A stretch of 36,788 nucleotides of DNA from a virus: the IMG/VR virus record IMGVR_UViG_3300050821_011929, positions 1-36,788 of that record, one strand, 5' to 3'. Both the position numbers and the translations under genes were made by a program. Of this stretch, positions 1 to 19,398 are shown one piece after another; position 1 is the stretch's first letter; each line of letters starts with the position of its first letter. The notes under the pieces were generated by a model. That model had not been told where the DNA came from and did no database searches. It worked only from the letters and a program-made list of their open reading frames with translations.

Positions 1-9
1 GTTCCGGCA

Positions 10-150: not shown

Positions 151-165
151 CAGGAAGAAAAATCA

Positions 166-3179: not shown

Positions 3180-3212
3180 TCGGCCCGGGGTTGACACCCC
3201 TTTTCATTATGA

Positions 3213-3506
3213 ATGGCGATCGATCGGCAGTTTGTTTCAAGTCTAGTTCAGGATGTCTTAGCGCAAGGGCCCATCGGGCCCGGGAACGCATCCTATGTTC
3301 AGTTGCAAGCTGATCAGGCGGCAGCCCGGGCCAAAATCAGTGCAGCAGACGGCAAGCAGGTTGTAAGCGCAAACGCTGGGGAATCGGTTTCCTGGCAGGT
3401 GGCAGATAGCTTGCAGGATCTGTATGGGGCATACACAACAGCCCTGGCTCTGTTGAACGGTCGATCACCCGTTATTCGGCAGACAACATCCGTTTTCGCA
3501 CCCTGA
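3213..3506 (+). CDS. Small head-tail joining candidate between terminase and portal
   Basis: This 97-residue protein occupies the place that the head-tail joining protein gpW holds in lambda-like phages, between large terminase and portal. It is mainly helical and Ala/Gln-rich, with a central segment AADGKQVVSANAGESV and a helical end DSLQDLYGAYTTALALLNG. The latter is reminiscent of gpW-like proteins, whose two helices flank a hairpin. I see no decisive motif, so the role is an inference from synteny and helix layout. The portal ATG follows one base after its stop. Confidence 0.5.
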   Translation: MAIDRQFVSSLVQDVLAQGPIGPGNASYVQLQADQAAARAKISAADGKQVVSANAGESVSWQVADSLQDLYGAYTTALALLNGRSPVIRQTTSVFAP

Positions 3507-3507
3507 A

Positions 3508-5028
3508 ATGATCGGCAACTACAAACTAGTTAAGGCCAGTCAATTAGAGGATTTCTCGAAACCCTACGTTTGGCAATTCCCCCTTGAAACCGATAAATCG
3601 ATTGTCACCAGTGACATCGATATTTTGCGGTCCCATTCGTTCTATCTGTTTAAGAACCTGGGCCCGCTTCGGGTGGCGATTCAGGAAAAGGCAATGTATG
3701 CAGTGGGGCACAACCATTGGCTGCCGATTTTCCGCGGCACTGACCTGAACTATAAAGGGCAGGTTCAAGAATGGCTGATCGAAAACTGGTATCCTATCTG
3801 CAATGTTCTGGGTGAAGAATTCGACTTTCAATCAACCCTCTTCCTGATTTCCATTCACCTGGATGTATGGGGTGAATCGTTCATCTATCTGACTGAATCA
3901 GAAGAGGGATATCCGATGATTCAGATTGTTTCCCCCTACTCAGTGGTGCAACCCAGGCAGGCTGGGGCCCTGAAAGATGGGTTCTTAACTGGGAGTAGTT
4001 TCGACGGGAAATTCAAAGGGATGAAGGTTGAAATGGGGGTTGTTAAGAATCCCCAGGGGCGGGCGATCGGTTATCACGTCAAAGCTGATCGCCAGGATGA
4101 CGACCAGATTGTGGATGCCATCGCAATGATCAGGGTGCGGGAATTGGACCTGGGCGACGAAACCCGGGCAACACCAACCCTGTCGCACGGCATCAATCAG
4201 GGGCGATCGATCCTATCCCTGATGGAAAACGAGCAAAACTTTTTGGAAATGGCATCTAGAATTAACATTCTGGAATGGAACGAACTGGGGGGGATCGATC
4301 CAACGGACCCAGGACAACTGCTATCGGTGATCAACGGGCAGCCAGGATCGGCGGCACTTTCATCAGATGCAGGTGCCACCCAAACTAATCTCCCGCCAAT
4401 TAACGGGAATCGGCAAACGGTTCTGGAATGGCAGCAGAAATCCCAAACCAAATATTTCACGGCTAACACAGGGGCGAAAATCCAGGCGTTCCAGTTCAAT
4501 AGGCCCGCCCAAGAATGGCAACAGTTTATGGATAAACTGAGCAGGTTCCTGATTGATCCTGTTTGGCCTTATTATCTGGTCGATCGGGAAGCTGATCTAG
4601 GTGGGGCCCAGTGCCGCGGGCTACTGGCTCGGGCGAATCGAATCGTGCAGGATCGGCAACAGTTGCTGCGCAGGGTTGCTCGGCGGGCAGTGGGTTATGC
4701 AGTGGCGAAGGGTGCGAAAATCGGGCGGATCCCCGGCAGCCCGCAATGGTGGCAATGGGATTTCACTACCCCTGCCAGGATCACCGTTGATTTCGGGCGG
4801 GATAGCAAAGCTGAACTGCTGGAAATCGAAGGGGAAATTCTTGATCCCGCGGAAACGATCGAAGCCCGGGGGCTGGATGTGGACACATTCTATGAAAATT
4901 TTTATACCACCATTGCCCGCAAACAGTTGGCAAAAGCCAAAATAGAAAAACAATACGGGATCACCATTGTTGACACCCCCGATCCTGTGATTGCGGGGGC
5001 AGATGTCCCTGGCAGTTCGGGCCAGTAA
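3508..5028 (+). CDS. Portal protein, GpB-like
   Basis: This 506-residue protein forms the twelve-subunit ring at the head vertex through which DNA passes. It has typical portal features: an N-terminal region with an FPLETDKSIV-type segment, a WGESFIYL stretch (~residue 119), a QIVSPYSVVQP segment, and late Ala/Arg-rich helices in the ARANRIVQDRQQLLRRVARR region (~375-395). The C-terminus ends with a PAETIEARGLDVDTFYENFY segment as in phage lambda B-type portals, which keep a domain specifying residues for the head protease region downstream. Its place between terminase and protease and its length support the call. Confidence 0.85.
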   Translation: MIGNYKLVKASQLEDFSKPYVWQFPLETDKSIVTSDIDILRSHSFYLFKNLGPLRVAIQEKAMYAVGHNHWLPIFRGTDLNYKGQVQEWLIENWYPICNVLGEEFDFQSTLFLISIHLDVWGESFIYLTESEEGYPMIQIVSPYSVVQPRQAGALKDGFLTGSSFDGKFKGMKVEMGVVKNPQGRAIGYHVKADRQDDDQIVDAIAMIRVRELDLGDETRATPTLSHGINQGRSILSLMENEQNFLEMASRINILEWNELGGIDPTDPGQLLSVINGQPGSAALSSDAGATQTNLPPINGNRQTVLEWQQKSQTKYFTANTGAKIQAFQFNRPAQEWQQFMDKLSRFLIDPVWPYYLVDREADLGGAQCRGLLARANRIVQDRQQLLRRVARRAVGYAVAKGAKIGRIPGSPQWWQWDFTTPARITVDFGRDSKAELLEIEGEILDPAETIEARGLDVDTFYENFYTTIARKQLAKAKIEKQYGITIVDTPDPVIAGADVPGSSGQ

Positions 5029-5056
5029 CAAAGCGGGCCCAAAATATTTTCACATT

Positions 5057-5896
5057 ATGCCTTTTCTTCGAATTCTGAACAGGTTGATGGAACAGCCCTG
5101 GTGCATCAACCCCGGGGGCTATGCCGCAGTTAAAGCCCTGGTCGATTCCAGGCTTGCCCGTGAAGGGCCTTTAATCCTGGGATCCGATTCCGCTTTCCAG
5201 AATCAATCGGTGGGCCTGAAACCTGGGCGACTAGCAACCATCACCATCAGTGGCACCCTGGGGCAACGGTTATCAGATATCGAACAGATTTGCGGGGGTT
5301 GCGATTATCAATCGATCAGTGGTGCGATCACCGATGCACTGGCAGAAGGCGCGGAAGGAATCCTATTTGTGATCGATTCCCCCGGAGGCATGGCAACAGG
5401 GTGCGGGGAGTGTGCCCAGGCAATTGCTGATGTGCCAGTTCCCACAGTGGCATTCACTGATTCCATGATGTGTTCGGCAGCTTACTGGCTGGCATCCAGT
5501 TGCCAAAAATTGATTGCCACCAACAGTGCTGATGTGGGTTCGATCGGTGTTCTGATGCCCTGGGTTGATCAAACACGGTTATGGGATCAACTGGGCATTC
5601 GTTATGATCCCATTGTCAGCAGTGGCGACACTCTGAAAACTACGGGTGGCGGGCCTAGCCTGAATCTGGAACAGCGGCAGTTTTTGCAGGCCCAGGTTGA
5701 TCAGACGGCAGCCGATTTCCGCGGGTTCGTTTCCAATTATCGATCGGTCAACTACACAGAACTAAAGGCTGGATGGTATTCCGGCAGTAAAGCCCTGGAT
5801 TTGAATTTGATTGATAAGATCGGATCACAATCAGACGCATTAAATGAACTGGCTAAACGTGTTTCAAAAGCCCAGCAGGTTGACAAAAAACGTTAA
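5057..5896 (+). CDS. S49-family capsid maturation protease
   Basis: This is a 280-residue SppA/ClpP-fold serine protease that cuts head proteins during assembly. Visible motifs are the DSPGG oxyanion loop (residues ~107-111), the nucleophile in MMCSAAYWLAS (Ser ~140), the ADVGSIGV strand and a candidate catalytic lysine in GDTLKTTGG (Lys ~194), a Ser-Lys dyad typical of S49. The frame stays open upstream to a TTG at 4991 and an ATG at 5003 inside the portal gene. I prefer ATG 5057 (MPFLRILN) because it clears the portal stop and starts just before the conserved PW..NP segment. Confidence 0.88.
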   Translation: MPFLRILNRLMEQPWCINPGGYAAVKALVDSRLAREGPLILGSDSAFQNQSVGLKPGRLATITISGTLGQRLSDIEQICGGCDYQSISGAITDALAEGAEGILFVIDSPGGMATGCGECAQAIADVPVPTVAFTDSMMCSAAYWLASSCQKLIATNSADVGSIGVLMPWVDQTRLWDQLGIRYDPIVSSGDTLKTTGGGPSLNLEQRQFLQAQVDQTAADFRGFVSNYRSVNYTELKAGWYSGSKALDLNLIDKIGSQSDALNELAKRVSKAQQVDKKR

Positions 5897-5900
5897 TCAA

Positions 5901-6365
5901 ATGGATAAACTCACCCTGGATTCAGCCCGTGAACAGATTGCCACCCAGGCAACGGAAATTCAGGGGTTGCAAGTTCGGATCGCAGAATTCGAAACCAACG
6001 CTGCAACGGCAACTGCCGAACTAGCCCAGTTGCGAACGGATATCGAAAGCCTTCGGGCAGAGAACCTGACACTGGCAAACGATAAGGCGACTCTCACCGA
6101 AAGTTCGGGCAAGCTGTCGGTCGAATTGGTTGCTGCCCAGGCTCAAGTTGCTGAACTGCAAAAGAAGGATATGAACGCTGATATGCGGGCAGCGGAACGG
6201 CTGGCTAGCATCAGTGGCAAACCCCTGGCGATCGCAGGGAATCAAGAGCCGAATCTTTCGCTAGTTGATATCAGCCTGGCAATGGATGCCGCAAACGTTA
6301 AGGGCGACAAGGCAGAAGTAGCCCGCCTGGGCAAACTTTACGACAAAACGAAGGCAGGGAAATAG
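5901..6365 (+). CDS. Coiled-coil scaffold-like head assembly protein
   Basis: This 154-residue protein has a long predicted coiled coil over residues ~5-95 (heptad-like LDSAREQIATQATEIQGLQ, continuing through AELQKKD) and a short C-terminal globular or tail segment. Its position between protease and major capsid protein is the standard place for a scaffolding protein, which guides prohead assembly and is then cleaved. Lambda makes its scaffold by internal initiation in C; here it would be a separate gene starting 4 bases after the protease stop. The start at 5901 was chosen over an in-frame TTG at 5844 within the protease. Confidence 0.6.
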   Translation: MDKLTLDSAREQIATQATEIQGLQVRIAEFETNAATATAELAQLRTDIESLRAENLTLANDKATLTESSGKLSVELVAAQAQVAELQKKDMNADMRAAERLASISGKPLAIAGNQEPNLSLVDISLAMDAANVKGDKAEVARLGKLYDKTKAGK

Positions 6366-6420
6366 GCCCGAATCCCGCAGTTTCACATTCACTTTTCTTT
6401 TCACCCAATAGGTTAAAATT

Positions 6421-7362
6421 ATGCCAGTTGCCAATGCACTCGGGACACTAAGCCCCACCGTTGTAACCCGTTCGACGATTCAATTTCTGAAAAAGCAGTT
6501 TCCTGCCCTATTCAGTATTTCCACCGATTTTTCAGATTCTGCTGTTCTCCTGAATCAGAACGTCGTCACCCGGGTTGTTACCCCGCCACCCGTGCATGAT
6601 TTTGTTGCGCCTAATGCGGGCGGCACTGGCTATCAGGCAGTAGACGCTGCAACGACAACGGATATCACTGTTGCGATCACCAAACACAAGTTTGCCAGCC
6701 TATCGTTTTCTGACACTGAGGTTGCCTCTACGGATCGGGATTTAACGGGGGAACAAAAGCAGGCCCTGGCTTATTCGCTGGGCAGGCAGGCAATGTTTGA
6801 TTTGTGTGCCCTGATCACCCCTACTAATTTCGCGAATCAATACGCAATTTTAGCTGCCGCCAATGCCAGCAAAAACACGGTGGTTCAGTTGCGCAAAGTG
6901 CTGATGAAAATCGGTGCCGATTTCGTTAATCCTTTCGGGTTGATTAACGCTGATGTTTTCGGGGCTCTTTCGGAAGATCCTACTGTCACTTCGAAAATCA
7001 CCTATGGTTCGGTCGATCCCCAGGTGAAAGGCGGCCCGGGTTCGATCACCGGGCTGGGTGGTTTTGAAACCATCACCGAATATCCCGAACTGAATCCTGC
7101 CAACGGGTTGCTAGGTTATTTTGGCGGAAAAGAAGGTTTGTTGATGGCAGCCCGGGTGCCGCAGATCCCGAACATTCAGGTGCCTGGAATCATCACCAAT
7201 GTGCAGGATGAAGACTCGGGCCTAACCCTGCAATGGCGGGAGTGGTACGATATGAACGGGCAACACAATATCACCCTTACCTGGATGTATGGCATGGCAA
7301 CGGGTGTCACTGGGCACGCGGCCCTGCTGTTACTTGATGCTGTTCACGGAAACCCTTCCTAG
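6421..7362 (+). CDS. Major capsid protein
   Basis: This 313-residue protein is the head shell subunit, most likely of the HK97 fold. It begins MPVANALGTLSPTVVTRST, with an early KKQFPALFSIST segment, a VVTPPPVHDF stretch, and alternating strands and helices consistent with this class. A late ITLTWMYGMATGVTG segment precedes the C-terminus. Identification rests on length, position after protease and scaffold, and the general composition, since capsid sequences diverge strongly. The leader (TAGGTTAAAATT before ATG) is AT-rich with no Shine-Dalgarno motif, although this should be the most highly expressed structural gene. Confidence 0.82.
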   Translation: MPVANALGTLSPTVVTRSTIQFLKKQFPALFSISTDFSDSAVLLNQNVVTRVVTPPPVHDFVAPNAGGTGYQAVDAATTTDITVAITKHKFASLSFSDTEVASTDRDLTGEQKQALAYSLGRQAMFDLCALITPTNFANQYAILAAANASKNTVVQLRKVLMKIGADFVNPFGLINADVFGALSEDPTVTSKITYGSVDPQVKGGPGSITGLGGFETITEYPELNPANGLLGYFGGKEGLLMAARVPQIPNIQVPGIITNVQDEDSGLTLQWREWYDMNGQHNITLTWMYGMATGVTGHAALLLLDAVHGNPS

Positions 7363-7382
7363 AAACGTTTTTTCTATTCGCA

Positions 7383-7628
7383 ATGGATATTGCCTATACA
7401 ATCGGAATTGACGCAGAGGGGAACACTCACCCCCTTTACTGCGGGCCTGATTTCTCGGCAGCCGATGCTGCGGGTGCCGCAGTGATCAAAGGTGCGGGCG
7501 GGATGGTCCGGGCGATCGTTTATCGAAACCCGCTACCTGCTCGCAGGTATATTGCTACTATTTCCCCGCCCGCTGAAGAACCTGCGATCGAACCTGCCCC
7601 AGCCCCAGCGGGCAAAAAGAAGGGTTAG
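7383..7628 (+). CDS. Small hypothetical head protein
   Basis: This 81-residue protein follows the major capsid gene after 20 bases. It has short beta-type segments (MDIAYTIGIDAEGNTH), an Ala/Gly-rich middle and a Pro/Ala-rich basic tail ending APAGKKKG. Genes here often encode decoration or connector proteins, but no family can be recognised. The low-complexity PAEEPAIEPAPAPAG tail looks flexible. Confidence 0.55.
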   Translation: MDIAYTIGIDAEGNTHPLYCGPDFSAADAAGAAVIKGAGGMVRAIVYRNPLPARRYIATISPPAEEPAIEPAPAPAGKKKG

Positions 7629-7638
7629 CTAAATTCTC

Positions 7639-7668
7639 GGCGGCCCGCGGCGGCCCGCGGCGGCCCGC
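7639..7668 (+). repeat. Perfect GC decamer repeat, three copies
   Basis: GGCGGCCCGC occurs three times in direct tandem (7639-7648, 7649-7658, 7659-7668) in the 51-base gap between two head genes. Each unit can pair with its neighbour through GCGGCCCGC/GCGGGCCGC-like complementarity, so a folded GC-rich RNA is possible. A degraded relative (GGCGGCCCGGGGCGGCCCAGG) lies at 25652-25672. Confidence 0.85.
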
Positions 7669-7679
7669 ACCCCCTGCCT

Positions 7680-7982
7680 ATGTCGATCCAAACTGAAATG
7701 GGGGCAGCTTGGGGCGAATTGCAAACCCTGTTCAATAAGGTTGCAACCATCAACGGGTTAACCGTTCCTGTCACAACGGGTGCGGCTGTTCGGCTGGCTG
7801 ATGATTACGGGCCCGGGGGCATCAACGCCACCCAGGCAGTACAAATTTACTCCCAAATCCTGGGCGGCCCGATTCCTGAAATCGGCAGCCAGATTCAGTT
7901 TCAGGGCCTAACTTATCGAATTGAATCGATCAGGGAATTGACCGTTACCTGGGAAATTATGGCAGTGCAGGTGATCGAATAG
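7680..7982 (+). CDS. Head-tail connector candidate
   Basis: This 100-residue protein has an N-terminal helix (MSIQTEMGAAWGELQTLFNK) and a C-terminal beta section ending in QIQFQGLTYRIESIRELTVTWEI. The pattern of a helix followed by 'F.G..Y.V..I' strands is common in phage head-tail stoppers (FII/gp16-like). The assignment is inferred from position between capsid and tail-completion genes plus this strand pattern. Confidence 0.5.
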   Translation: MSIQTEMGAAWGELQTLFNKVATINGLTVPVTTGAAVRLADDYGPGGINATQAVQIYSQILGGPIPEIGSQIQFQGLTYRIESIRELTVTWEIMAVQVIE

Positions 7983-7994
7983 AATCCCGCATAA

Positions 7995-8645
7995 ATGCCA
8001 ACCACAACTGACATCAAGGCATGGAACGCAACCTTCGAAAAATACATGAAGTTGCGGAAAACAGCCCGGGCAGAAGTGATCGAAGGAAAAGCCAGGGATT
8101 TCGCTTTCAAGGTGTTCCAGAACATAGCCCCCGTGCCCGCGGGAAAGATCGAAAACGAACTGCTGCAAAATAAGCGGATCCTGCGATTAACATGGTACAG
8201 GCTGCAGAAGAAATTCGGGCCTGATGTTCTGAAGGGTAAAGCTGCCAGCAAACGCAGACGGGCAATTCATAAAACGGGCAAAACCAAAAAGGCTTTAACC
8301 CCGGGCAACAAAATCGTGCGGGCCTATGCTAAAACCTTGATGGCATCCCGCAAAAGATCGTCGGGTTATCATCGGGTTTCCTTCCTGTTGATAGCCCAAA
8401 AGCTGGGGAAAACAGGGGCAAACCCCCAAGTGAATCCCCGATCGCTGTTAAATAGAACGAACGTTTCAAAAACGAATAACGCTTTCCGTACAGTGGTGCG
8501 AACCAACGCTGTTGCCCGGGGGCTTGCCTGCCCGTCAACCAATGCCGCAGTTGATAAAGCCCTGGCGGATATCAAACAAGAAATGGAAACCGAAATTATC
8601 AAACGGCTGGCGGCAGCCAAACGGGAAGCTGGCTTTATTCGATGA
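7995..8645 (+). CDS. Neck or tail-completion protein candidate
   Basis: This is a 216-residue, strongly basic and mostly helical protein. Features include WNATFEKYMKLRKTARAEVI near the N-terminus, a KAASKRRRAIHKTGKTKK basic stretch in the middle, and a helical C-terminus with DIKQEMETEIIKRLAAAKRE. Size and position agree with tail-completion proteins of the gp10/Z type, which often have this N-terminal helix. No diagnostic motif is visible, so the role is inferred. Its TGA overlaps the next ATG (ATGA). Confidence 0.5.
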   Translation: MPTTTDIKAWNATFEKYMKLRKTARAEVIEGKARDFAFKVFQNIAPVPAGKIENELLQNKRILRLTWYRLQKKFGPDVLKGKAASKRRRAIHKTGKTKKALTPGNKIVRAYAKTLMASRKRSSGYHRVSFLLIAQKLGKTGANPQVNPRSLLNRTNVSKTNNAFRTVVRTNAVARGLACPSTNAAVDKALADIKQEMETEIIKRLAAAKREAGFIR

Positions 8646-9058
8646 CTGAGGAAACCGAACAATTCCTAGTGTCACTGCTGGTGCCCGTGGTGGGCCCTGC
8701 TGCGGTCCCTGTTCGGCAGGTTAAAGCTGATGATCCCCTTATTCGCCCGATCGTTCTAGTGGCGGCCCAGTTCCATGAAACCCTTATCCCCGGGGGTGCC
8801 TATCCTGTCGCCCGAATCAATTTCGAGATCACCCTTGAGAGTCAAGTAACGGAAACCCCCGTTGAAACCCATCAGGCTCTGATCGGGGCAATAGCCCTGG
8901 GGTTGCCCGCCTATGGTCAATTTACAGGGGAACAAACAATTTTCGATCAGGTGTTTTTTGGCCCGCTGACTGGGGCTCAAGACACCAAAAACGCTTTGAT
9001 CAGATCCTATACGTTCACAGGCTATTTAGTGGGCAGGTTGACAGTGCCCACAGTTTAG
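8642..9058 (+). CDS. Tail terminator candidate
   Basis: This 138-residue protein sits where tail terminator proteins (lambda gpU class) normally lie, just before the tail tube. It shows an alpha/beta mix: an N-terminal helix in EETEQFLVSLLVP, strands in PVARINFEITLESQ, a helix ETHQALIGAIALGL and a final strand SYTFTGYLVGRLTV. The ARINFEI..ESQ..E.P.E.H..L arrangement closely resembles that class. It is translationally coupled to the gene before it. Confidence 0.55.
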   Translation: MTEETEQFLVSLLVPVVGPAAVPVRQVKADDPLIRPIVLVAAQFHETLIPGGAYPVARINFEITLESQVTETPVETHQALIGAIALGLPAYGQFTGEQTIFDQVFFGPLTGAQDTKNALIRSYTFTGYLVGRLTVPTV

Positions 9059-9074
9059 GAACCCGAAAAATTTT

Positions 9075-9440
9075 ATGCCAGCAACTGTTTACCCTTCTAC
9101 ACTTGGATTCACCTGGGGCATCACCACTGAGGAAACGGGTTTAGCCGTTGCAAGTGTTCGCCAAAACGATTCAACGCAAATTTTTGAACAGAAAGATAAT
9201 CAAGGGGAAACAATCGCTGTTGTCAGCCATGATTTGAAAGCTGAAATCACGATTGAAGGCGAGATTACGGGTGCATTTACCTGGGCGGCAGGTGTCCCGA
9301 TTGTGGTTGCTAACATTTTGGCGATCGGCGGGGTGGCTGCAGGATTGGTGATGTGTAAAAACATCGAAATTACGCAATCCAGGGAAGCAATGAAGAAATG
9401 CACGGTGAATGCCACCATGTATCCTTTGATCCCCGCTTAA
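9075..9440 (+). CDS. Tail tube protein candidate
   Basis: This 121-residue, beta-rich protein is the likeliest tail tube subunit. It has TEETGLAVASVRQNDS, then FEQKDNQGETIAVVSHD followed by KAEITIEGEITG, the pattern of small tail-tube proteins in which an 'E.KD..G..V......' strand precedes 'I...G.' strands. A late VMCKNIEITQSREAMKKCTV strand-helix ends in YPLIPA. The call rests on this pattern and on position between terminator and chaperone genes. The start has an AT-only leader (AAAAATTTT) and no Shine-Dalgarno site. Confidence 0.5.
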   Translation: MPATVYPSTLGFTWGITTEETGLAVASVRQNDSTQIFEQKDNQGETIAVVSHDLKAEITIEGEITGAFTWAAGVPIVVANILAIGGVAAGLVMCKNIEITQSREAMKKCTVNATMYPLIPA

Positions 9441-9461
9441 TTCCTGCCCGCTTAATTCCTG
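9432..9461 (+). repeat. Perfect 15-bp tandem duplication over a stop codon
   Basis: CCCGCTTAATTCCTG is repeated exactly at 9432-9446 and 9447-9461. The first copy contains the last sense codon and TAA stop of the tail tube candidate, so the second copy repeats the gene's end without coding. This looks like a recent slippage duplication. Confidence 0.9.
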
Positions 9462-9471
9462 CTTACTTTTT

Positions 9472-9849
9472 ATGTTCAATCACCAAATCACCAGCACGTA
9501 TGCCACCGATGAAGGCATTGCGATTTCGGCACTGAGCAAATACACAGGCACGGCTGAAGTAGGGTATGATGGCACTGTCCCGCCCGCCACCGATCTAGTA
9601 GAGGTCGATATTGCCTGGATTCGAGCGAACGTTAAGGCACTGCTGCTGTATTCGAGTCAGGCTCTGACCATCAAAACGAATGTTTCAGGTGCCCCAGTCA
9701 ACACGATTGTTCTGGCGGCAGGGCAGGCAATCACCTGGGGTGTTGATCATCCTGAAGCAAACCCAGTGGCTGCTGATGTCACCAAACTTTTTCTATCGAA
9801 TGACGGGACGAATCCCGCAATTGTTAAGATTCGGGTTTTGATCGCTTAA
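9472..9849 (+). CDS. Beta-rich hypothetical structural protein
   Basis: This 125-residue protein is rich in beta strands (DIAWIRANVKALLLYSS, TIKTNVSGAPVNTIVLAAG and a final AIVKIRVLIA). It contains no known motif. The strand pattern with repeated V/I and small residues fits a virion surface or tail protein. Its position beside the tube gene suggests a tail or head-decoration component, but nothing decides between them. Confidence 0.55.
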   Translation: MFNHQITSTYATDEGIAISALSKYTGTAEVGYDGTVPPATDLVEVDIAWIRANVKALLLYSSQALTIKTNVSGAPVNTIVLAAGQAITWGVDHPEANPVAADVTKLFLSNDGTNPAIVKIRVLIA

Positions 9850-9865
9850 AGAGCCCCCCCCGAAA

Positions 9866-10030
9866 ATGAGCCTGCAGGCAATTATTCGATTGGTGATCAT
9901 CGGGTTAGTCCTGCTCATCGTTTGGGTGATCTGCGGGATATTCATCGGGGGAACAATCCATCTAGCGATCGGGGCAATTCTTGTTCTGTGTTTTCTTTTG
10001 TACGTTTTGAAAACGTTCAACATTTTCTGA
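9866..10030 (+). CDS. 54-residue two-span membrane protein
   Basis: An ATG at 9866, after an eight-C run, opens 54 codons to TGA at 10028-10030. The product has two hydrophobic spans (residues ~5-29 and ~32-48) with a short turn and ends YVLKTFNIF. The shape, two spans with a W in the first and a short F-rich end, resembles the Thivi_2564-type small membrane proteins found in phages and bacteria. It could act like a holin, though its place among tail genes is not the usual holin position. The function is not established. Confidence 0.65.
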   Translation: MSLQAIIRLVIIGLVLLIVWVICGIFIGGTIHLAIGAILVLCFLLYVLKTFNIF

Positions 10031-10085
10031 AAAACTGATCGGGGCTAGTTTCCCCATCACCATCAAATTTTAAATCCCGTCTCGA

Positions 10086-10607
10086 ATGAACACCCCGGCA
10101 GGGCAGTTTGTAGTAACATCGAATACCAAACTGGCTGCTACTTTGCGGGTGTTCGAAATCCCTCTGCCGCGGCATAACCCCGCAGTAGTGGCTGAAGTGT
10201 TCAGGCTCTCGGATCTGCGGCGGGGCAAGAAAGATCCCAAACCCAAAAAAAGGGTGTTCTGGAATTTTGAACCGCACCCTGCTGCCGCAATCGTCACAAA
10301 GGCGTTTAGTTCAACTACTGCTGATGCCGATTTTGAAAAGTTCGTCGATTCCCTGGCTCTGCAACCTAATGTAAGCGGCACGGGCCTTTCCCCCGAAAAA
10401 CTTCTCAAACTGCGGGCCTTACATTCGGCTGCTGTCGCCCAGGCTTGCAGAGAAGTGCAACACATGAAGGAACTGCTGGTGCAAGCCTGCCATGAATGCC
10501 CTGATGCAGCCTTATGGCAGGTGATCCTGAACGATGATGGCAGCATTCATTCGATGTTTCCAAAGGCAGCCAGTACAGAGACTAAATCCAAGTTTTTCAC
10601 CAAATAA
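10086..10607 (+). CDS. Hypothetical protein upstream of tail chaperone
   Basis: This 173-residue protein has an N-terminal beta part (QFVVTSNTKLAATLRVFEIP), a basic turn (RRGKKDPKPKKR), and a helical C-terminal half with LLKLRALHSAAVAQACREV and a Cys/His cluster (VQACHECPDAALW). It is not recognised. Its place just before the tail chaperone gene suggests a tail assembly role. Confidence 0.5.
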   Translation: MNTPAGQFVVTSNTKLAATLRVFEIPLPRHNPAVVAEVFRLSDLRRGKKDPKPKKRVFWNFEPHPAAAIVTKAFSSTTADADFEKFVDSLALQPNVSGTGLSPEKLLKLRALHSAAVAQACREVQHMKELLVQACHECPDAALWQVILNDDGSIHSMFPKAASTETKSKFFTK

Positions 10608-10633
10608 CCGATACCCTAAATCCCCGCACCCTT

Positions 10634-11092
10634 ATGCCTGACACCCTGCCGAACCCAGCCAATATCTTAGATGAACCTGAAACCCTGGAACTGCCTGACA
10701 CACCCGAAAAGGCATTCGTTTCAGCCCTGACACCCAAATTTTTCAACGGCAAACGCCTGGAACCGTTCAGCCTGCTGCGGCAGGTGTTTGCCCTGTCCCT
10801 AGGGGTGAGCGATTCCGCGGCAGACCGAATGCAGGATGCCATTACAATCGTTTGGTTATGCAGCCTGACTGAATGGCAGGTGAGTATTGAAATGGCAAAC
10901 AAAGTGCAGGCCCGAATCAATGCATCAAAATGGGCAGAGGGTGCGGGCATCAGCCTGACAAATTATCAGCCTGTGATGGATGTCTACAAATTGATATCGG
11001 CTGAAATCGCTGCCTCAACTGGGGCAGTTGAACAGGTTGACGGCAAAAATGGAACCATCGAAAAAAACGGTGGCGGGCAGCTTCCCAATTAG
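10634..11092 (+). CDS. Tail assembly chaperone, G-like, unshifted form
   Basis: This 152-residue protein lies directly before the tape measure gene, the standard position of the tail assembly chaperone that binds the tape measure during tail building. Helical segments (LLRQVFALSLGVSDSAADRM, ITIVWLCSLTEWQVSIEMAN) match the all-alpha character of these chaperones. The last codons before TAG include GAA AAA AAC, a canonical -1 slippery heptamer, so a fraction of ribosomes should make the longer fusion listed separately. The ordering G, frameshift, GT, tape measure is the conserved lambda-type arrangement. Confidence 0.75.
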   Translation: MPDTLPNPANILDEPETLELPDTPEKAFVSALTPKFFNGKRLEPFSLLRQVFALSLGVSDSAADRMQDAITIVWLCSLTEWQVSIEMANKVQARINASKWAEGAGISLTNYQPVMDVYKLISAEIAASTGAVEQVDGKNGTIEKNGGGQLPN

Positions 11093-11265
11093 AAACAGCC
11101 ACTGCCGCTGCCGCAGTCAGTAAGTTTGATTTACATTATATTTTTTGGTTATTGCCAGTAGCAATCTGTTTCCAGTTGCAGTTGCTGTACTACCAACGGA
11201 ACGGCACCAAACTGGTGCGGAAATCCGAAATTGATGTGGACGTTTTGACAACCTTTCTAAGTTGA
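10634..11265 (+). CDS. Tail chaperone -1 frameshift fusion, GT-like (210 residues)
   Basis: Ribosomes slipping back one base at 11062-11068 would read 145 zero-frame residues, then 65 residues in the -1 frame from CGG at 11068 to the TGA at 11263-11265. The extension reads RWRAASQLETATAAAA at first, then a hydrophobic FDLHYIFWLLPVAICFQLQL and finally KSEIDVDVLTTFLS. It exactly fills the otherwise empty 170-base gap, and its stop overlaps the tape measure ATG at 11265 (TGATG). The -1 frame has no start codon of its own in a sensible place. In lambda the fused T part recruits tail tube protein; the same role is inferred here. Confidence 0.75.
11062..11068 (+). promoter_or_regulatory. Programmed -1 frameshift slippery site A AAA AAC
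   Basis: In the chaperone frame the codons read GAA AAA AAC, giving the X XXY YYZ heptamer A AAA AAC, 22 bases before the zero-frame stop. Seven bases downstream GGCAGC (11076-11081) can pair with GCTGCC (11107-11112), a possible stimulating stem; an alternative GGTGGC/GCCACT pair starts one base after the heptamer. The stems are weak predictions; the heptamer itself is unambiguous. Confidence 0.75.
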
Positions 11266-13886
11266 TGGCTGGCGATACTGTCACAACGATTTTTGGCGGG
11301 GATGATTCGAACTTTCAGGCAGCAGCCCGAAAGGTTAAAGAATCGATAGATGCACTGGGGGCAAAGGCTGGCCCCATGCAGTTTTTCAAAGAGGCTGCTG
11401 CGGGTGCCGAAAGCCTGCATACCGCCACTGAACATGCCCGGGCAGGTGTTGATGCCCTAAAGGCTGCACTGGCCCCCCTGATCGCAATGGGCGCTGCCCT
11501 TACAGGGGTGGCAACCATATTCGACGGGATCAAACGATCGATCGAACTGGCAGCAAAAGTTGAAACCGCGGAATTCCATCTAGGGGCAGTTGCGGGTGGT
11601 GCCGATAAGGCAACAGCATCAATCAAACGCCTGCATGAAATCGGGGATGAAACGGCAACGGGGTTCGGCAAGCTAGCAGAAGGTTCAATCAGGCTGCAGG
11701 AGGCTGGGCAATCAGCGGATCAGGCGGCAGAATCGATGGGCAAATTGCAGAAAATTGCCCTGAATTCCGGCAGTGATGTTGAAGAACTGGGGGCAATTTA
11801 TGCCCGGGTTCTGACAAAGGCTGATGTTAGTTCAAAGGATCTGGTCAAGCTGGCAATGACTGGGATTCCTGGGATGGCTGAAATTTCCCAATCATTTAAG
11901 GCTGCCGAACAGAACACCGCAAAATGGGATCTGGAAATCGACAAAACGATTCAGGCAATGAATCGGCTGTTTGAACAGACCGAAAAGCAAACCAGTTCGG
12001 CAAATTCGTTCGGCTCGAAAATCGGGCTGATGCAAGCCAGTTTCAGCCAGTGGGCCCGGGCAGGTGGGAACGCTGTTGGCGGCCTAATAAAAGCGATCGA
12101 CGGCATCAGTGAAGGCGGCATTAGCAAAATGTCGGGCACGTTCGGGAAGGAATTCACTGAAGGGTTGCAGCAGATCGAAACCGAAACGGGCCTGTCAGGT
12201 GCAGCCCTGCAACATTTCATGGCAGAGGGCAAGCTGGGCTATGAAGAATTGATAGCAGCATCAGGCAGGTTCAGGGAAGAACAGCATAAGGCTGCTGATG
12301 CCAAAGCAGAGGAACAAAAACTGGCAAACCAGAACGCCCTGCTGGCTGAACAAAAGGGCCTGCTGGATAAGGTTCGGGCTGCTATCGAAACAGCCACCAA
12401 ACCCGGGGGCATATTCGGCACTGTTGAGGCATTTTTCGAGACGTTCAACGGCAAATGGCAACAGGTTCAACATGCTATCGACGGGGCTTTTCATTCTTTC
12501 GGTGATCCCCTGATGGAATCCCTGAAACCTGCCCTGGATGCCATAAATACGTTTTTTGAAGGCCCAGCAAAGGCATCAGTTAAAGACTGGGGCACTTATC
12601 TGGGCGGAATGGTGAAAGATGCCATTCATGGGTTGCAAACGGGTGATTGGAAACCGTTACAAAAAGATGGGGAAACCGCATTTGCTGCGATCCTGAAAAT
12701 GGCATCAACAGGGATGGACAATCTGGGCCTTGCCTTGAATGCAGTGTTCACAGGCCCGGGGATGGTGAAAGCCATTGCTGCCCTGTCAAAAGCCCTGATA
12801 GCCGTTGCCAGTGCATTTGGCGAGGCAATGATGCAGGCTGCAGCCAGCCCGATGCGAAAGGTTGAAGCATTCGACATCGCAGTCATGCCCGGGGTGCGGA
12901 ATATAGTTGCTGCCCGCAACAAATCGGACTGGGACAAATTCACTCCAGAACAAAAACAGGAATTCACTGATCAGGGCGGGGGTGCCAAACCTAGTGCCCT
13001 GGAGGAAGTCACCGGGGGCAACATCGCAAAAGACAGTGATATCATCGCGAAAATCAAAGGGTTTTCAGGGGTGATCGCAAAGGTGAATGAGGCATCAAAA
13101 GATTTGGCTGATGCAGTCACCGGGGTTGTAGCAACAGTGAAAGATGCGGGCCAAAAAATGGCTCAGCGGGATGAAGGACAATCTGGCAAAAATGCAGAGG
13201 GCAAACCAACAGGGATGGATCAAACCACCTGGGACACCTTCTATAAACCACTGACACCCCGGGCCCAGCCCAAAGCAGCCCCAGGCGAACCCGCGGCAAC
13301 CAGCAGTGAACCCGCGGCAGCCACCACCACTAGCCCGATTGCCAGTGCCTCTGCAGGCACTGCCGCAGACACCGCGGGGGCCCCTGGTGCCACGTTTGCC
13401 GGGTTCCAGCCCCCATCACCCCAGCCAGAACATAAAGAGGCTGAAAGAGGCAGTGGAAAAAGCAGTTCCAGCAAAACCGAAAAGGCGGGGAAAGATGATC
13501 CCATGCCATCGGATTTCAAGGGCAAAACCCAAAAGGAAAGGTGGGCTGATTATGATCAGCAGTGGAAAGGATGGAATGAACGCAACCCCTTGGGGTTTAC
13601 GGAAACAGACGCACTGAAAAAAGGCGGGGAAGCTAGCATTCAATCCGATGTAGGCAATACTCCAGGCAGCGGGCTCGGGGTTCCTGAAAGCCCAGGGCCC
13701 GGGGTTTCCCCTGCTATGCCTAATTCACCCGCGGGCGGAAATATTGGTTCAGCACCTGCCGCACCTGCCACTGGTGGTGCTGCCGCGGCGATCACTGCCC
13801 CAGTGGCGCTGATTTTGTCGAAACTGGATTTGCTAATAGGCGCGATCGGGAAGGAAGCTGGATTTCTCGAAAAGGTTCTAAGCTGA
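11265..13886 (+). CDS. Tail tape measure protein
   Basis: This 873-residue protein sets tail length and is later ejected with the DNA. The N-terminal third carries the conserved tape-measure domain, with the AAKVETAEFHLGAVAGG segment, GFGKLAEGSIRLQEAGQ and SSKDLVKLAMTGIPGMAEI. A long helical middle follows, then an Ala/Ser/Thr/Pro-rich flexible stretch near residues ~665-725, and a hydrophobic C-terminal segment (AITAPVALILSKLDLLIGAI). I chose ATG 11265, which overlaps the frameshift product's stop, over a TTG at 11262. By the usual proportionality (lambda: 853 residues and ~150 nm) the tail should be about as long as lambda's. The stop overlaps the next ATG. Confidence 0.9.
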   Translation: MAGDTVTTIFGGDDSNFQAAARKVKESIDALGAKAGPMQFFKEAAAGAESLHTATEHARAGVDALKAALAPLIAMGAALTGVATIFDGIKRSIELAAKVETAEFHLGAVAGGADKATASIKRLHEIGDETATGFGKLAEGSIRLQEAGQSADQAAESMGKLQKIALNSGSDVEELGAIYARVLTKADVSSKDLVKLAMTGIPGMAEISQSFKAAEQNTAKWDLEIDKTIQAMNRLFEQTEKQTSSANSFGSKIGLMQASFSQWARAGGNAVGGLIKAIDGISEGGISKMSGTFGKEFTEGLQQIETETGLSGAALQHFMAEGKLGYEELIAASGRFREEQHKAADAKAEEQKLANQNALLAEQKGLLDKVRAAIETATKPGGIFGTVEAFFETFNGKWQQVQHAIDGAFHSFGDPLMESLKPALDAINTFFEGPAKASVKDWGTYLGGMVKDAIHGLQTGDWKPLQKDGETAFAAILKMASTGMDNLGLALNAVFTGPGMVKAIAALSKALIAVASAFGEAMMQAAASPMRKVEAFDIAVMPGVRNIVAARNKSDWDKFTPEQKQEFTDQGGGAKPSALEEVTGGNIAKDSDIIAKIKGFSGVIAKVNEASKDLADAVTGVVATVKDAGQKMAQRDEGQSGKNAEGKPTGMDQTTWDTFYKPLTPRAQPKAAPGEPAATSSEPAAATTTSPIASASAGTAADTAGAPGATFAGFQPPSPQPEHKEAERGSGKSSSSKTEKAGKDDPMPSDFKGKTQKERWADYDQQWKGWNERNPLGFTETDALKKGGEASIQSDVGNTPGSGLGVPESPGPGVSPAMPNSPAGGNIGSAPAAPATGGAAAAITAPVALILSKLDLLIGAIGKEAGFLEKVLS

Positions 13887-14758
13887 TGAGATTTTCAACA
13901 GTAGTGGCATTCGTCGAAACCGTGGGCAGACGGCAGCAGTCAACGTTCGGCGGGTTGGATACAATGACCTGTTTTTGGACGGGCCCCAGTGCTATTCAAT
14001 CGCAGTTTTCCCCGATCATTGAGGTTCCCCTGGGGATTTCTCCTTTTATCCAGGGAACCCCGCACCCTGAATTTCCAGGGATGTTTATCAAATCAGTTCG
14101 GCAGGTGTTCGAAACCGCAGGCATCAGTTCCTTTGAGATCGATTATGAAGGGATGTTTCGGTTCCCCGGGGGCAACTGGATTTCACCCCCGATCGTTTCC
14201 CGTAAAACTGCTGTCGGGACCCTTTCCTATACTTTCGGGGTGCAACTGAATGCCCAGCAGGTTTCGCAATCGGGCCTGAACCGAACCACTGAAAATAAGG
14301 TTCTGCGAGGCAGTCAATCCATCACCATGCATTATACGACATCAGCAGTGAAAATTGCTTATCGCAGCAGGTTGATTCAGTTAAACCCGCAATTCCAGGG
14401 GATCGCAAATTCGCTAGGGGTTGGATACAACATTTTTAAACGTGTCCTTTCCCCGTTCACTGGGGGTTCCACCTACAGCAGCACCACTCAAACAGTTAAT
14501 CTGGAAGCGTTCGCAAAACCCACTCCTTACATTTATAATGTGGCTGCATTCATAGAAGCTGAACAGGCAGCTATTCAAACGTCGATTCAGTACGGGTTGA
14601 CCGGGGGTGACAACACAGAATATTTCTCGATCAATAGCCCCCCGGGCCCTGATCAAACGATAGAATGCCTGGATTTTTCCAGTGATCCAGAAGGGGTTTA
14701 TTATAAGAATTCGGAAACCTGGCAAGTGGTTCTAAGCCCACCCCAGCAACTGCAATAA
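13886..14758 (+). CDS. Distal tail or minor tail protein, unrecognised
   Basis: This 290-residue protein begins on the tape measure stop (TGATG), as distal tail proteins do. It is beta-rich, with FSPIIEVPLGISPFIQG early, AVGTLSYTFGVQLNAQQVSQ in the middle, and VAAFIEAEQAAIQTSIQYG before a C-terminal strand region ending in TWQVVLSPP. No family is recognised. Its position suggests the hub or distal tail protein at the tail tip, but no lambda J/L/M-like motifs are visible. Confidence 0.55.
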   Translation: MRFSTVVAFVETVGRRQQSTFGGLDTMTCFWTGPSAIQSQFSPIIEVPLGISPFIQGTPHPEFPGMFIKSVRQVFETAGISSFEIDYEGMFRFPGGNWISPPIVSRKTAVGTLSYTFGVQLNAQQVSQSGLNRTTENKVLRGSQSITMHYTTSAVKIAYRSRLIQLNPQFQGIANSLGVGYNIFKRVLSPFTGGSTYSSTTQTVNLEAFAKPTPYIYNVAAFIEAEQAAIQTSIQYGLTGGDNTEYFSINSPPGPDQTIECLDFSSDPEGVYYKNSETWQVVLSPPQQLQ

Positions 14759-14761
14759 GGC

Positions 14762-15163
14762 ATGGCCCTGGAACCCATTAAAATCGGCTGGAAACTGTTG
14801 GCAGGCTGGCTGAATGAATTTCTGTCTTTCGTTGAAAAACAGGTGCCGATTGCAGGTGAGGGCATTTCCATTGAACCGACAGAGGGCGGCACCATTATTT
14901 CGGTTCTATCAAAAACTGATCCTGATATTGATCCTGTCACCCATTTGCCCGCCAAAAAAAACCCTGCAACCACAATGGGTGGTGGTGGTGGCGGGGGATT
15001 CCCTCCCACCCCCGATAGTTCAACCCCACACTGGCGATTGATTAACATTATGGGCCCGGGGTGCGTTCAATCGACCATCTATATTTTCGCGTCAACCCCA
15101 GGGGTTATTGATTCTGGAACACCCCCCGGGCAGGGCCCTGATGGTGGCACTGGGTTTGCCTAA
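14762..15163 (+). CDS. Glycine-rich tail-tip hypothetical protein
   Basis: This 133-residue protein starts with an amphipathic segment (LEPIKIGWKLLAGWLNEFLSF), continues with short beta-like parts, and has a GGGGGGGFPP linker at ~residue 78 and a Gly/Pro-rich tail. It is probably a small structural or assembly protein of the tail tip. Its stop touches the next gene's ATG, so both are likely translated together. Confidence 0.5.
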   Translation: MALEPIKIGWKLLAGWLNEFLSFVEKQVPIAGEGISIEPTEGGTIISVLSKTDPDIDPVTHLPAKKNPATTMGGGGGGGFPPTPDSSTPHWRLINIMGPGCVQSTIYIFASTPGVIDSGTPPGQGPDGGTGFA

Positions 15164-15961
15164 ATGCCTGCCATTACCACCCCTGTCATCATTTCATGGT
15201 GCCCGAACAGCGGGTGCGATCCCTGCGCCTCTGCGCCTAAGTTTTTTTGTGTAACGAATCGCAGTATTTCAACCACTATCAGTGTTTTCAGGTTAAGCCC
15301 ATTTTACACTGGCCCTGTTGTTGACCGTTTATCAAATGAGGCTGCAGGTGATCCCCCGGGAAGCCCTGGGGCAGGGGCTGCAGGCTGGCCCGGGTATATT
15401 GCGAATACTTTCGTGATGCCAACGGTGGGATTTTTTACTGTTTCATCGGATGTGTCTTATGTGCCGTTGATCGGGCAAGGCGGGGAAGTGGTGAATGATT
15501 CGATCGGCAGCGATTTTGATTCAGTGATTCAATTCTATGATCCCAGCAAACCAAATGAATACTGGGGTTTTTGTTCTGAATCGGGGGGATTCACTTGGAA
15601 CGAACCTGAATGGCTAGGTGATCCTACTCACACTCACACTGTCGGGGATGGTGGCGGGGGGATCAATAATATCTGGTATAAAGAAAACGCAGTAGGACCT
15701 GACGGGGAAGGGAATTTTACCTATTCAGTTGAGACCGTCGATAGTGATGGGCCTGATGTTAGTTTCTACTGCAATATCTTGAAAATCTGGACTCGGGTTG
15801 ATCAAATCACGCTGCATTCAGTGGCAGAGGTTCTGTATTTTAACACCATCGATGAATACAACCTGATTGCCGATACAGGATTTACCACCAACACAAATGA
15901 TGGATCGGAAACCGTTCAGACTATCTTTTCGGTGGGTTCAGTGCAGGCTCTGCCAGCCTAG
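15164..15961 (+). CDS. Hypothetical tail-tip protein
   Basis: This 265-residue protein begins immediately after the previous stop. It contains two early cysteine pairs (CPNSGCDPC, residues ~12-20, and FFCVTN) and is otherwise beta-rich, with aromatic segments such as FYDPSKPNEYWGFCSESGGF and a THTHTVGDGGGG loop. A His-rich turn plus glycine loop may bind metal. No family is recognised. Its position between tail tip and fibre suggests a virion component. Confidence 0.5.
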   Translation: MPAITTPVIISWCPNSGCDPCASAPKFFCVTNRSISTTISVFRLSPFYTGPVVDRLSNEAAGDPPGSPGAGAAGWPGYIANTFVMPTVGFFTVSSDVSYVPLIGQGGEVVNDSIGSDFDSVIQFYDPSKPNEYWGFCSESGGFTWNEPEWLGDPTHTHTVGDGGGGINNIWYKENAVGPDGEGNFTYSVETVDSDGPDVSFYCNILKIWTRVDQITLHSVAEVLYFNTIDEYNLIADTGFTTNTNDGSETVQTIFSVGSVQALPA

Positions 15962-16114
15962 ATGATTTTTGCTTCATCAACAGAAATCACACAACGGCTG
16001 GGGATTTGCAGGCAATGCGAATTTTATGCCGCACCCAGGTGCCAGCGGTGCGGGTGTTTTCTGCCGTTCAAGATCAGATTGAAAAGCCAGGAATGCCCGA
16101 TTCAGAAATGGTAA
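15962..16114 (+). CDS. 50-residue zinc-ribbon-like phage protein
   Basis: An ATG at 15962, adjoining the previous stop, encodes 50 residues with cysteines at 16, 19, 27, 30, 32 and 45 in a CxxC...CxxCGC...CP..KW arrangement. This Cys spacing, ending CPIQKW, recurs in very small proteins of tailed phages, typically between tail and fibre genes, and is expected to form a zinc knuckle. The role is unknown. Confidence 0.75.
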   Translation: MIFASSTEITQRLGICRQCEFYAAPRCQRCGCFLPFKIRLKSQECPIQKW

Positions 16115-16154
16115 ACCCCTGCGGGTTGACTGTTCGCCCATTTATAGCAGCCCT

Positions 16155-18329
16155 ATGAATATTTACGTCGATTTGGATTCGCGCACGGCAGTAGTCTCTG
16201 CAACTCAACGCTCTGCCATTGGAACAATTGAGGTCAAAAATCAGGACACAATTGATTTCAATATTTATTTCGTTCAGGGCGGGAACTACGTCGATCTAAC
16301 GGCTGGGGCAGCCCTGAAATTCGGGTTGGTGGCAGCAGGCCAAACCACCCTGCTGGTTCTGACAACAGCATTTGCTTATCTGCATGATGCCGCAGGGAAC
16401 CCTTATTTTCAGGGGCAGCCTGTGTTCAACACAACACAGATGGCAAATGCAATGGGAACGAACAAATCGATCCTTTGCACGGGCGAAATTCGATTCGAAC
16501 AGCCTGACGGGGAAATCATTCATACCCTGTCGATTCCGTTTCAGGTTGATTTGACGTTGGTTCCTGAAACAGGGACCACCCCGCCAACAGTGAGCGGCAC
16601 TTATCCCGATGAATCAACGCTTGTTTTATTGTCGCAGGCTAATGCTGATGGTGGCTGGCTGCAGCTTGATTCAAGCGGGCTAGTTCCTGATGCCAGGATC
16701 CCCGCAACAGTTGAACGGCTGACCAACAAAAATCAGCCTGGGGGTTATCCAGGGCTAACTGCGGGCAAGGTGGCGGGCGGCATCCTGCCGATCGACGGAA
16801 GTTCAATCGGGTTGAATGGTTCGGGGCAATTAACGTTGCTGGGAACGTTCCTGGCATCCCTGACAGATTTTGAAACTACGGCAGGTGTCAGCCTGATTGA
16901 AAATGCCGCGGGTGTCCTGAACCGTTTGGTTGCAGGTACGGGCATCACTTTTGATACCAGTGTTCCTGGCGAAATCACCCTGAATGTTGTTGAGTCATCG
17001 GGCGGGATTACTGCCCTTTCCGATGCGGAAACCTCATCGGGTTTAACCCTGATTTCCAACGTTGACGGAATCCTCAAACGCCTGACGGCAGGAACGAATG
17101 TCACCCTGGATGCAACCACTACCCCGGGTTCGATCATCATTAATTGCACGGGTTATCCCCTGACTGATGCCGAAACCAGTTCGGGGGTAACTCTGATTTC
17201 TAACACCCTGGGAGTTCTGAAACGGATCGCTGCAGGTGCAAATGTCACTTTAGACACCACCACAGTTCCAGGCTCAATCATTATTGCGGCAGCGGGCGGG
17301 GGTGGTGGTTCCCTGACACTGGCTGATGAGGAAACCTCAACGGGGCAGACCCTGTTAGGGGCAACAAACGGGTTGATCAAACGACTGGTGGCAGGAACGA
17401 ATGTCACTATCGATAATACCACCACCCCGGGGGCCCTGATTCTGGCTGCATCAGGTGGTGGCGGGGGTTCTCTCACACTGGTTGACGCTGAAACCTCTGC
17501 AGGCAACACCCTGCTGGGTGCGACTAACGGACAGATCAAACGAATTATTGCAGGAACGAATTTGACCGTTGATACCACCACCACCCCGGGGGCATTGATC
17601 CTGAATGCCGCGGGTGGCGGGGGTGGTGGCGGGGCTTTCGATCCCACAACGGGGATTGATGAGACAGAGGATTTTTTCGGGGCGGCCCCCTGGAAATGGA
17701 ACTGGAAAAGCTATAGCTCGGGTGCGGGATCTGCACCAGTTAATGTTCCTTGCATTTCTGGCGACAAGACCAATGGAGTCATTCAATTAACGACAGGGGT
17801 GGGCGGATCTGGATCGGCAGGCACTTCAGGATTAGCTTTAGGGACCCTGATCGGCCAGGATTTTTTCACCGGGCAACAACCAATCACCATTACGTTTCGG
17901 GCACGGTTCGCAACCACCTTGCCAACGACTAGCAAATACAGCAGATGGATGATCGGTTTGTTTAATAATTTTGGTGATACCGTAGGCACCCGAACAGGAG
18001 TCAATAACGGGCTCTTTTTCATGTTTGATCCCAGCTTAACTGGTGATACCAGTTGGTACGCTTACGCCATGCAAGGCAACGCAGGGGCGGGCAGTCTGAC
18101 AACGGGGGTTGCTGCTGATCTGTCCTGGCACACCTTTATTTTAACGATCGGGGCATCACACGTCTATTCCTACACCATTGACGGGGCAGCCTTAACCGTT
18201 CCCCCCGCCAGTAATATTGATACCACTGCGCTTTCCCTTGGAATTCAGGGATCAAATTTCGATACAGGAGCAGGGGAAATTGATCTACAAATTGATTTCA
18301 TTCGGGTGCAGCAAACTCTAGCTAGATAA
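16155..18329 (+). CDS. Tail fibre protein with five internal repeats
   Basis: This 724-residue protein is probably the host-binding tail fibre. Residues ~1-140 form a beta-rich attachment domain (MNIYVDLDSRTAVV...), similar in style to N-termini of phage upper-baseplate and fibre proteins. Then come a PDARIPATVERL linker and five ~50-residue repeats (residues ~238-493), each starting D.ETS.G.TLI and containing .KRL.AGTN.T.D.TTTPG. Glycine stretches separate the later repeats. The C-terminal ~225 residues look like a beta-sandwich, lectin-like head (ITFRARFATTLPTTSKYSRW, SWHTFILTIGASHVYSYTID). Repeats plus a terminal sugar-binding-type domain fit a fibre shaft and tip. Confidence 0.8.
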   Translation: MNIYVDLDSRTAVVSATQRSAIGTIEVKNQDTIDFNIYFVQGGNYVDLTAGAALKFGLVAAGQTTLLVLTTAFAYLHDAAGNPYFQGQPVFNTTQMANAMGTNKSILCTGEIRFEQPDGEIIHTLSIPFQVDLTLVPETGTTPPTVSGTYPDESTLVLLSQANADGGWLQLDSSGLVPDARIPATVERLTNKNQPGGYPGLTAGKVAGGILPIDGSSIGLNGSGQLTLLGTFLASLTDFETTAGVSLIENAAGVLNRLVAGTGITFDTSVPGEITLNVVESSGGITALSDAETSSGLTLISNVDGILKRLTAGTNVTLDATTTPGSIIINCTGYPLTDAETSSGVTLISNTLGVLKRIAAGANVTLDTTTVPGSIIIAAAGGGGGSLTLADEETSTGQTLLGATNGLIKRLVAGTNVTIDNTTTPGALILAASGGGGGSLTLVDAETSAGNTLLGATNGQIKRIIAGTNLTVDTTTTPGALILNAAGGGGGGGAFDPTTGIDETEDFFGAAPWKWNWKSYSSGAGSAPVNVPCISGDKTNGVIQLTTGVGGSGSAGTSGLALGTLIGQDFFTGQQPITITFRARFATTLPTTSKYSRWMIGLFNNFGDTVGTRTGVNNGLFFMFDPSLTGDTSWYAYAMQGNAGAGSLTTGVAADLSWHTFILTIGASHVYSYTIDGAALTVPPASNIDTTALSLGIQGSNFDTGAGEIDLQIDFIRVQQTLAR
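16866..17634 (+). repeat. Five tandem shaft repeats in the tail fibre
   Basis: Units begin at 16866, 17022, 17166, 17325 and 17484 and each encode about 48-53 residues. Units 3-5 end in a run of GGT/GGC/GGG glycine codons (GGGGGSLTL). Amino-acid identity is clearly higher between neighbouring units 4 and 5 than with unit 1, consistent with stepwise duplication. Confidence 0.85.
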
Positions 18330-18398
18330 GGGTTCATCCTGGGTGGGTTTCCTTGATTTGATCGGATAAAAAACTCGGGGGTTTCAGGGTTTGCCCGT

Positions 18399-19373
18399 TT
18401 AATTCTTGCCTCTGCTATGAATAGAACCCCTGGGCCTTTCCAGTAGGGTTAAATCTTCTCTGTCTTCAACCTTCAAGGTTTGCTTTGTTTCCCCCAGGCA
18501 AAACAGGTTCCAAGTTTTTACTAAGAATCTGCCCAAAGTATCTAACGGATATTTCTGCAGCGAATTCCTGTTGTTGATGACGATCTTTCGCAGTTGCAGA
18601 ATCGGGCTATCCTTTGCCAATTCCGCACCCGTTTGCAGACGATCAAAAAAGTAAGCGCAATTTTCATCGTCGATCGATGAAAACATATAGTGGCAGGCAG
18701 CAATCATGCTGGGGCTGCCCAGCGGGAAATCTTTAGTGATCCCTGAAATGGCAAAGGCGGCACTGATTCGCAGGTTCGGATTTTGGCGAAGAATTTCTTC
18801 AATTTCCGCATAAGCTATTCGTCCTTTGCCTTTCCCGAAATGTCCTGTGCGTTGAAAACTTTCTAGGAAACGACAGGCACTAGCCAGAATGGTTGTGGTG
18901 GTTTCTCCCGCTATGTGTAACACATCGGCAATCGATCGGGCACGGTTCCGATCGATCGTTTTGAAGGCATCATTATCAACACCCCTGACCACCAGCAGGG
19001 GAATTGCTTTGCCCGCCTGAATTGCGGCAGCCAGCCTGTGTTGTCCATCAAGCATGTTGCCATTTTTCCCGAAAATCACGGTTTGCCCGTTTATCATCCA
19101 ACCCCCGGGCTTGATTTGATTAGCGTAAAACGAAACGGCAGTGCCGCTGAGTTTTCGATTCTTTTTGTTTAGATCAAGCCATTCTTGGGCAAGTGTCGGG
19201 GTGCACAGAACCCATTCAACGGTGCAACTATCAATCGCTTTTAAGAATTGTTCCCACTCCCGATCTGTTACCCCTTCGGGTTTATCGGCTGGCTGTTCGG
19301 GTTTACTCCCGCCTGGGGTGCGGGCAGATAGTTTCCGTTTAGGGGCAGTTCGGTTTTTTGTCACTGTTTGCAT
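18399..19373 (-). CDS. ParB/Sulfiredoxin-fold (DGQHR) protein
   Basis: This 324-residue protein carries the ParB-like motif NMLDGQHRLAAAI (DGQHR near residues 109-113), which marks the ParB/Srx nucleotide-binding fold. A basic, disordered N-terminus (KRKLSARTPGG) and a mainly helical C-terminal half follow. No ParA-type ATPase lies nearby, so a plain segregation role is unlikely. In phages such proteins more often act as nucleases or DNA-modification and regulatory factors. I chose ATG 19373 over a GTG at 19385. It is the last gene of the minus-strand block and converges on the tail fibre. Confidence 0.75.
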   Translation of the reverse strand: MQTVTKNRTAPKRKLSARTPGGSKPEQPADKPEGVTDREWEQFLKAIDSCTVEWVLCTPTLAQEWLDLNKKNRKLSGTAVSFYANQIKPGGWMINGQTVIFGKNGNMLDGQHRLAAAIQAGKAIPLLVVRGVDNDAFKTIDRNRARSIADVLHIAGETTTTILASACRFLESFQRTGHFGKGKGRIAYAEIEEILRQNPNLRISAAFAISGITKDFPLGSPSMIAACHYMFSSIDDENCAYFFDRLQTGAELAKDSPILQLRKIVINNRNSLQKYPLDTLGRFLVKTWNLFCLGETKQTLKVEDREDLTLLERPRGSIHSRGKN

Positions 19374-19398
19374 TTGGTTTTTCACGGGTTGCAGGGTT

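Follow-up and report, generated by a model that had tools for sequence, protein, structure and literature searches.

Frameshifted tail chaperones in other phages

The G/GT gene pair of phage lambda resembles the locus described here in its gene order, in a -1 shift close to where G ends and in a -1 frame that ends at the start of the tape-measure gene; in the lambda record, T ends at 10549 and H starts at 10542. Lambda differs in its heptamer, G_GGA_AAG, and in the length of the extension, which is 144 amino acids as compared with 65 here. Throughout this class of chaperones, gene order and frameshift anatomy are widely conserved although sequence similarity is low, as stated in PMC5009743.

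The probable frameshift is of a known kind, and A_AAA_AAC sites are already known in the chaperone genes of other phages. Published accounts report this heptamer for phiCbK (PMC3556154), for Loki and IME_AB3 (PMC5313236), for HCTV-2 (PMC5009743) and possibly for Dragolir (PMC6003738), contradicting an earlier note on this DNA in which an A-type heptamer was considered a specific feature of the phage. In Caulobacter phage phiCbK (gp93/gp94, D865_gp325/324), A_AAA_AAC was also read in the record and the gene order G-T-tape measure is as here, with the tape-measure gene 5 bases on. However, the phiCbK heptamer abuts the zero-frame stop, its extension has 156 amino acids, and it is in the window phage that a conserved block follows. 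The record of Acinetobacter phage Loki (gp12/gp13) likewise contains A_AAA_AAC; in Loki too the heptamer abuts the stop, the extension is 116 amino acids long and an extra gene lies between the chaperone and the tape measure. The distance from the end of the heptamer to the end of the stop is 18 bases in lambda, 3 in Loki, 3 in phiCbK and 24 in the window phage.

Bacterial -1 sites of the dnaX type have a Shine-Dalgarno stimulator upstream and a stable hairpin on the 3' side. In the window phage the candidate hairpin has an ordinary folding energy, and GGAG, GAGG and AGGA were absent from the 21 bases upstream of the heptamer in both the window and its diverged relative, L002. These motifs were found at 3 of 47 hand-picked gene starts, compared with 3.1 at random. 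Since the starts have no Shine-Dalgarno excess, translation may be initiated in another way in the host, which may also decode differently from E. coli. In E. coli, A_AAA_AAC is far less shift-prone than A_AAA_AAG according to PMC5009743, and E. coli may not reflect the host of this phage.

Anatomy of the locus and its conservation

The window, the whole 36,788-nucleotide stretch of DNA that was analysed, contains the following features.

10634-11092, + strand: zero-frame open reading frame, G-like putative tail assembly chaperone, 152 amino acids
11062-11068, + strand: slippery heptamer A_AAA_AAC, in phase with the G-like frame; same sequence in L002
11065-11265, + strand: -1 frame extension from translation, a T-like domain with 65 codons past the heptamer
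11069-11092, + strand: doubly read stretch from the slip site to the zero-frame stop; 23 of 24 bases as in L002, compared with about 71% overall
11071-11120, + strand: exactly conserved 50-base stretch, identical in the window and L002; probable 3' stimulatory RNA signal
11073-11081, + strand: 5' arm of a hypothetical candidate hairpin, 8 pairs with a bulge at G11077, 4 bases downstream of the heptamer
11107-11114, + strand: 3' arm of the hypothetical candidate hairpin, with the zero-frame stop in the 25-base loop
11263-11267, + strand: TGATG, overlap of the -1 frame stop with the start of the tape-measure gene; L002 has TAATG at this position
11265-13886, + strand: tape-measure protein gene, weak Pfam TMP_3 match

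The codons GAA AAA AAC at 11060-11068 lie in the frame of the 10634-11092 ORF, giving the phase X_XXY_YYZ, and the reading of this ORF confirmed the phase proposed earlier for the heptamer. The heptamer does lie shortly before the zero-frame stop as had been claimed, but 21 bases, rather than 22, separate it from the TAG at 11090-11092. The heptamer alone is little evidence because AAAAAAC is common in the window, with 22 occurrences on both strands against 12.4 expected. The 47 hand-picked ORFs taken as genes contain 24 in-phase X_XXY_YYZ sites (Y = A or T), and at three of these the -1 frame extends more than 60 nt beyond the zero-frame stop. Sites 28906 and 28909 were rejected as frameshift candidates since their long -1 frame is explained by an ordinary ATGA overlap of the ORFs 28547-28930 and 28927-29124.

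Translation of the -1 frame gives K followed by RWRAASQLETATAAAAVSKFDLHYIFWLLPVAICFQLQLLYYQRNGTKLVRKSEIDVDVLTTFLS and then TGA at 11263-11265, the last base of which is also the A of the tape-measure ATG at 11265-11267. The 65 open codons, the position of the stop and the TGATG overlap agree with the earlier description. The gap between the two annotated frames, said to be empty over 170 bases, is indeed filled by the -1 frame, although it measures 172 bases (11093-11264).

Scans of viral contigs, seeded by exact short peptides so that distant kin could be missed, yielded two relatives, and further hits were repeats of the same two contigs. Scans of genome contigs with such seeds found no relative. 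One of the two, L001, shares 99.985% identity with the window across 6,540 bases and therefore gives no independent evidence, so that the comparison stands on one independent homologue, L002 (IMGVR_UViG_3300050821_010452), whose tail module aligns in two blocks of 71.7% and 69.3% DNA identity. A supposed third relative, L017, proved to be a chance match of LFEQTEKQ in an unrelated reading frame.

The main evidence for the frameshift is comparative: the anatomy of the locus is conserved in this diverged relative. L002 retains the heptamer in phase, the TAG and an open -1 frame of equal length, and its -1 stop codon is TAA instead of TGA at an unchanged position, forming TAATG. A check of homologues for loss of the heptamer or stops in the -1 frame had been suggested; when it was run, both heptamer and open frame were found to be kept in L002, the single independent homologue. 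Sequencing error as the source of the signal was ruled out, L002 being from another metagenome record. Amino acid identity with L002 is 77% for the G-like ORF, 85% for the T-like extension and 65% for the tape measure, and MAGDTVTTIFGGDD is the common start of the two tape-measure proteins. Between 11095 and 11262 the window and L002 differ at 31 sites, of which 7, 4 and 20 fall at positions 1, 2 and 3 of the -1 frame; the third-position excess (20/31) has a binomial p of 3.7e-4 against one third. The remaining two phases of the extension carry stops in both sequences.

The G-like gene lies directly upstream of the tape-measure gene, an assignment that is itself below the Pfam cut-off, the TMP_3 match having an E value of 2e-6 and 28.1 bits against a curated cut-off of 41. 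No convincing family match was obtained for G or T in Pfam, PHROGs or NCBIfam. With tblastn against phage records, G had no match, T had only hits with E values of 6-7, and no similarity to lambda was found for either. The AlphaFold models of G and T had a mean pLDDT of 45 and 67, respectively, and were too poor for a fold search. The name tail chaperone is putative, resting by analogy on gene order and frameshift anatomy. Among 50,697 phage records the window DNA had no match, and the proteins of the tape measure, the 9075 gene and the 13886 gene had none in the phage records. The terminase is lambda-type (Pfam GpA_ATPase, 8e-28) and matched 295 phage records, all below 60% identity.

The window terminase had no match in the L002 record. 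The capsid-like ORF of L002 differs by eye from the major head protein of the window (PHROG 283), the regions compared being 6421-7362 in the window and 2-874 in L002, and the tail modules are related. Head and tail modules thus appear to have been exchanged. A spacer at 9850-10085 is 236 bases long in the window and 43 bases in L002; the window spacer contains, by eye, a hydrophobic ORF of roughly 54 amino acids at about 9866-10030 (ATG/TGA) that is absent from L002. Elsewhere in the window, 18399-19385 on the - strand has a strong match to PHROG 5931 (E 7e-60), a family of unknown function.

The conserved element after the slip site

The 50 bases at 11071-11120 are the longest exact run within the aligned region 10670-11330. 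Runs of codon identity were scored by the per-residue background chance in eight paired tail-module frames, with 11050-11122 excluded from the background. The score (-log10) at 11071-11120 was 6.21, the highest of the compared module; the second-best run, 2.16, is the same stretch in the G frame and the best elsewhere was 1.91. The block was spotted before being tested, though it is located where a stimulator is expected. The element is partly read in two frames, and double reading alone restrains change. However, in the nine codons at 11092-11118, essentially past the zero-frame stop, the synonymous positions are identical too (product of chances, 1.8e-4). Because the stretch continues beyond the zero-frame stop and is unchanged even at synonymous positions, an RNA signal probably reaches about 52 bases beyond the heptamer.

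The candidate hairpin has a folding energy of -11.6 kcal/mol in both the window and L002. The folding energy downstream of the heptamer was not exceptional when compared with shuffled sequences (z of 0.16 in the window and 0.50 in L002), and 23% of the 57-base windows in 1-18330, or 44% of the GC-matched ones, fold as well. The candidate stem had been called weak earlier, which is accurate with respect to energy but overlooks the strong nucleotide conservation at this place, with 50 identical bases. Rfam gave no match. An H-type pseudoknot can be drawn in the window, but also in 35 of 1000 shuffles, and its first stem has only 4 pairs in L002.

Probable frameshifting, its alternatives and the tape measure

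Programmed -1 ribosomal frameshifting of the lambda G/GT type on A_AAA_AAC, the reading put forward in the earlier note, is the best explanation of the locus and, judged from the sequence, very probably the correct one, because the heptamer, the TAG, the -1 frame and the overlap are kept in L002, the substitutions show a third-position bias and there is no early start. The possibility was considered that T has a start of its own and is a separate gene, its translation being coupled to termination of G, and a TTG at 11152 is indeed common to the window and L002. A search of the -1 frame after the heptamer found no ATG, GTG or TTG before 11152 (the first 28 codons), which means that ribosomes have to come in from the frame of G, and the codons at 11095-11151 are nevertheless conserved at the protein level. 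A separate gene would also leave the conserved in-phase heptamer unexplained, and this reading is hardly credible. Transcriptional slippage, in which RNA polymerase would add an A within the run of seven A residues and the edited mRNA would be read in frame to give the fusion, has a precedent in type III secretion genes, as mentioned in PMC5009743. The run at 11061-11067, which contains the A bases of the heptamer, is kept in L002. Seven A residues are, however, short for efficient bacterial transcriptional slippage. Moreover, an A-run needs no conservation some 52 bases downstream, past the zero-frame stop, and such an origin of the fusion is very improbable.

Frameshifting might need the heptamer only, the 50-base identity being the result of a recent short recombination or of low local mutation. 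The ordinary folding energy downstream is in keeping with this, as is the closer approach of the heptamer to the stop in lambda, Loki and phiCbK than in the window phage. Since the conservation is limited to the bases that closely follow the heptamer, and no other run in the compared module scores higher, this explanation of the identity is doubtful, although less so than the two rivals of frameshifting itself.

On the frameshift reading, the majority of ribosomes would read 10634-11092 and make a short G-like protein. A minority would slip by -1 on A_AAA_AAC, with tRNA-Lys and tRNA-Asn re-pairing on AAA AAA, and would then pass the conserved RNA element to yield a G-T fusion that has about 210 residues and terminates at the start of the tape measure. 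If the proteins act as in lambda, G would coat the tape measure, and G-T, the rarer product, would recruit the tail tube protein.

In this phage, whose gene starts seldom carry Shine-Dalgarno sites, it is conceivable, though unlikely, that the tape measure is translated mainly by frame-shifted ribosomes that stop on TGATG or TAATG, with the element at 11062-11120, perhaps a pseudoknot, setting the ratio. If so, G-T fusion and tape measure would be made at a ratio close to 1:1, and G would be in excess. A second TGATG, at 13884-13888, joins the stop of the tape measure to the start of the next gene, which suggests that start-on-stop coupling is habitual in this phage.

With this locus, an orphan tail module, for which the queries used gave no relative among 50,697 phage records, joins the frameshifting phages, and annotation of both the G and the G-T products becomes possible. 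A defined candidate stimulator is provided by the 50 conserved bases that extend beyond the zero-frame stop. Furthermore, the idea of a set stoichiometry is testable because the -1 frame hands over exactly at the start of the tape measure.
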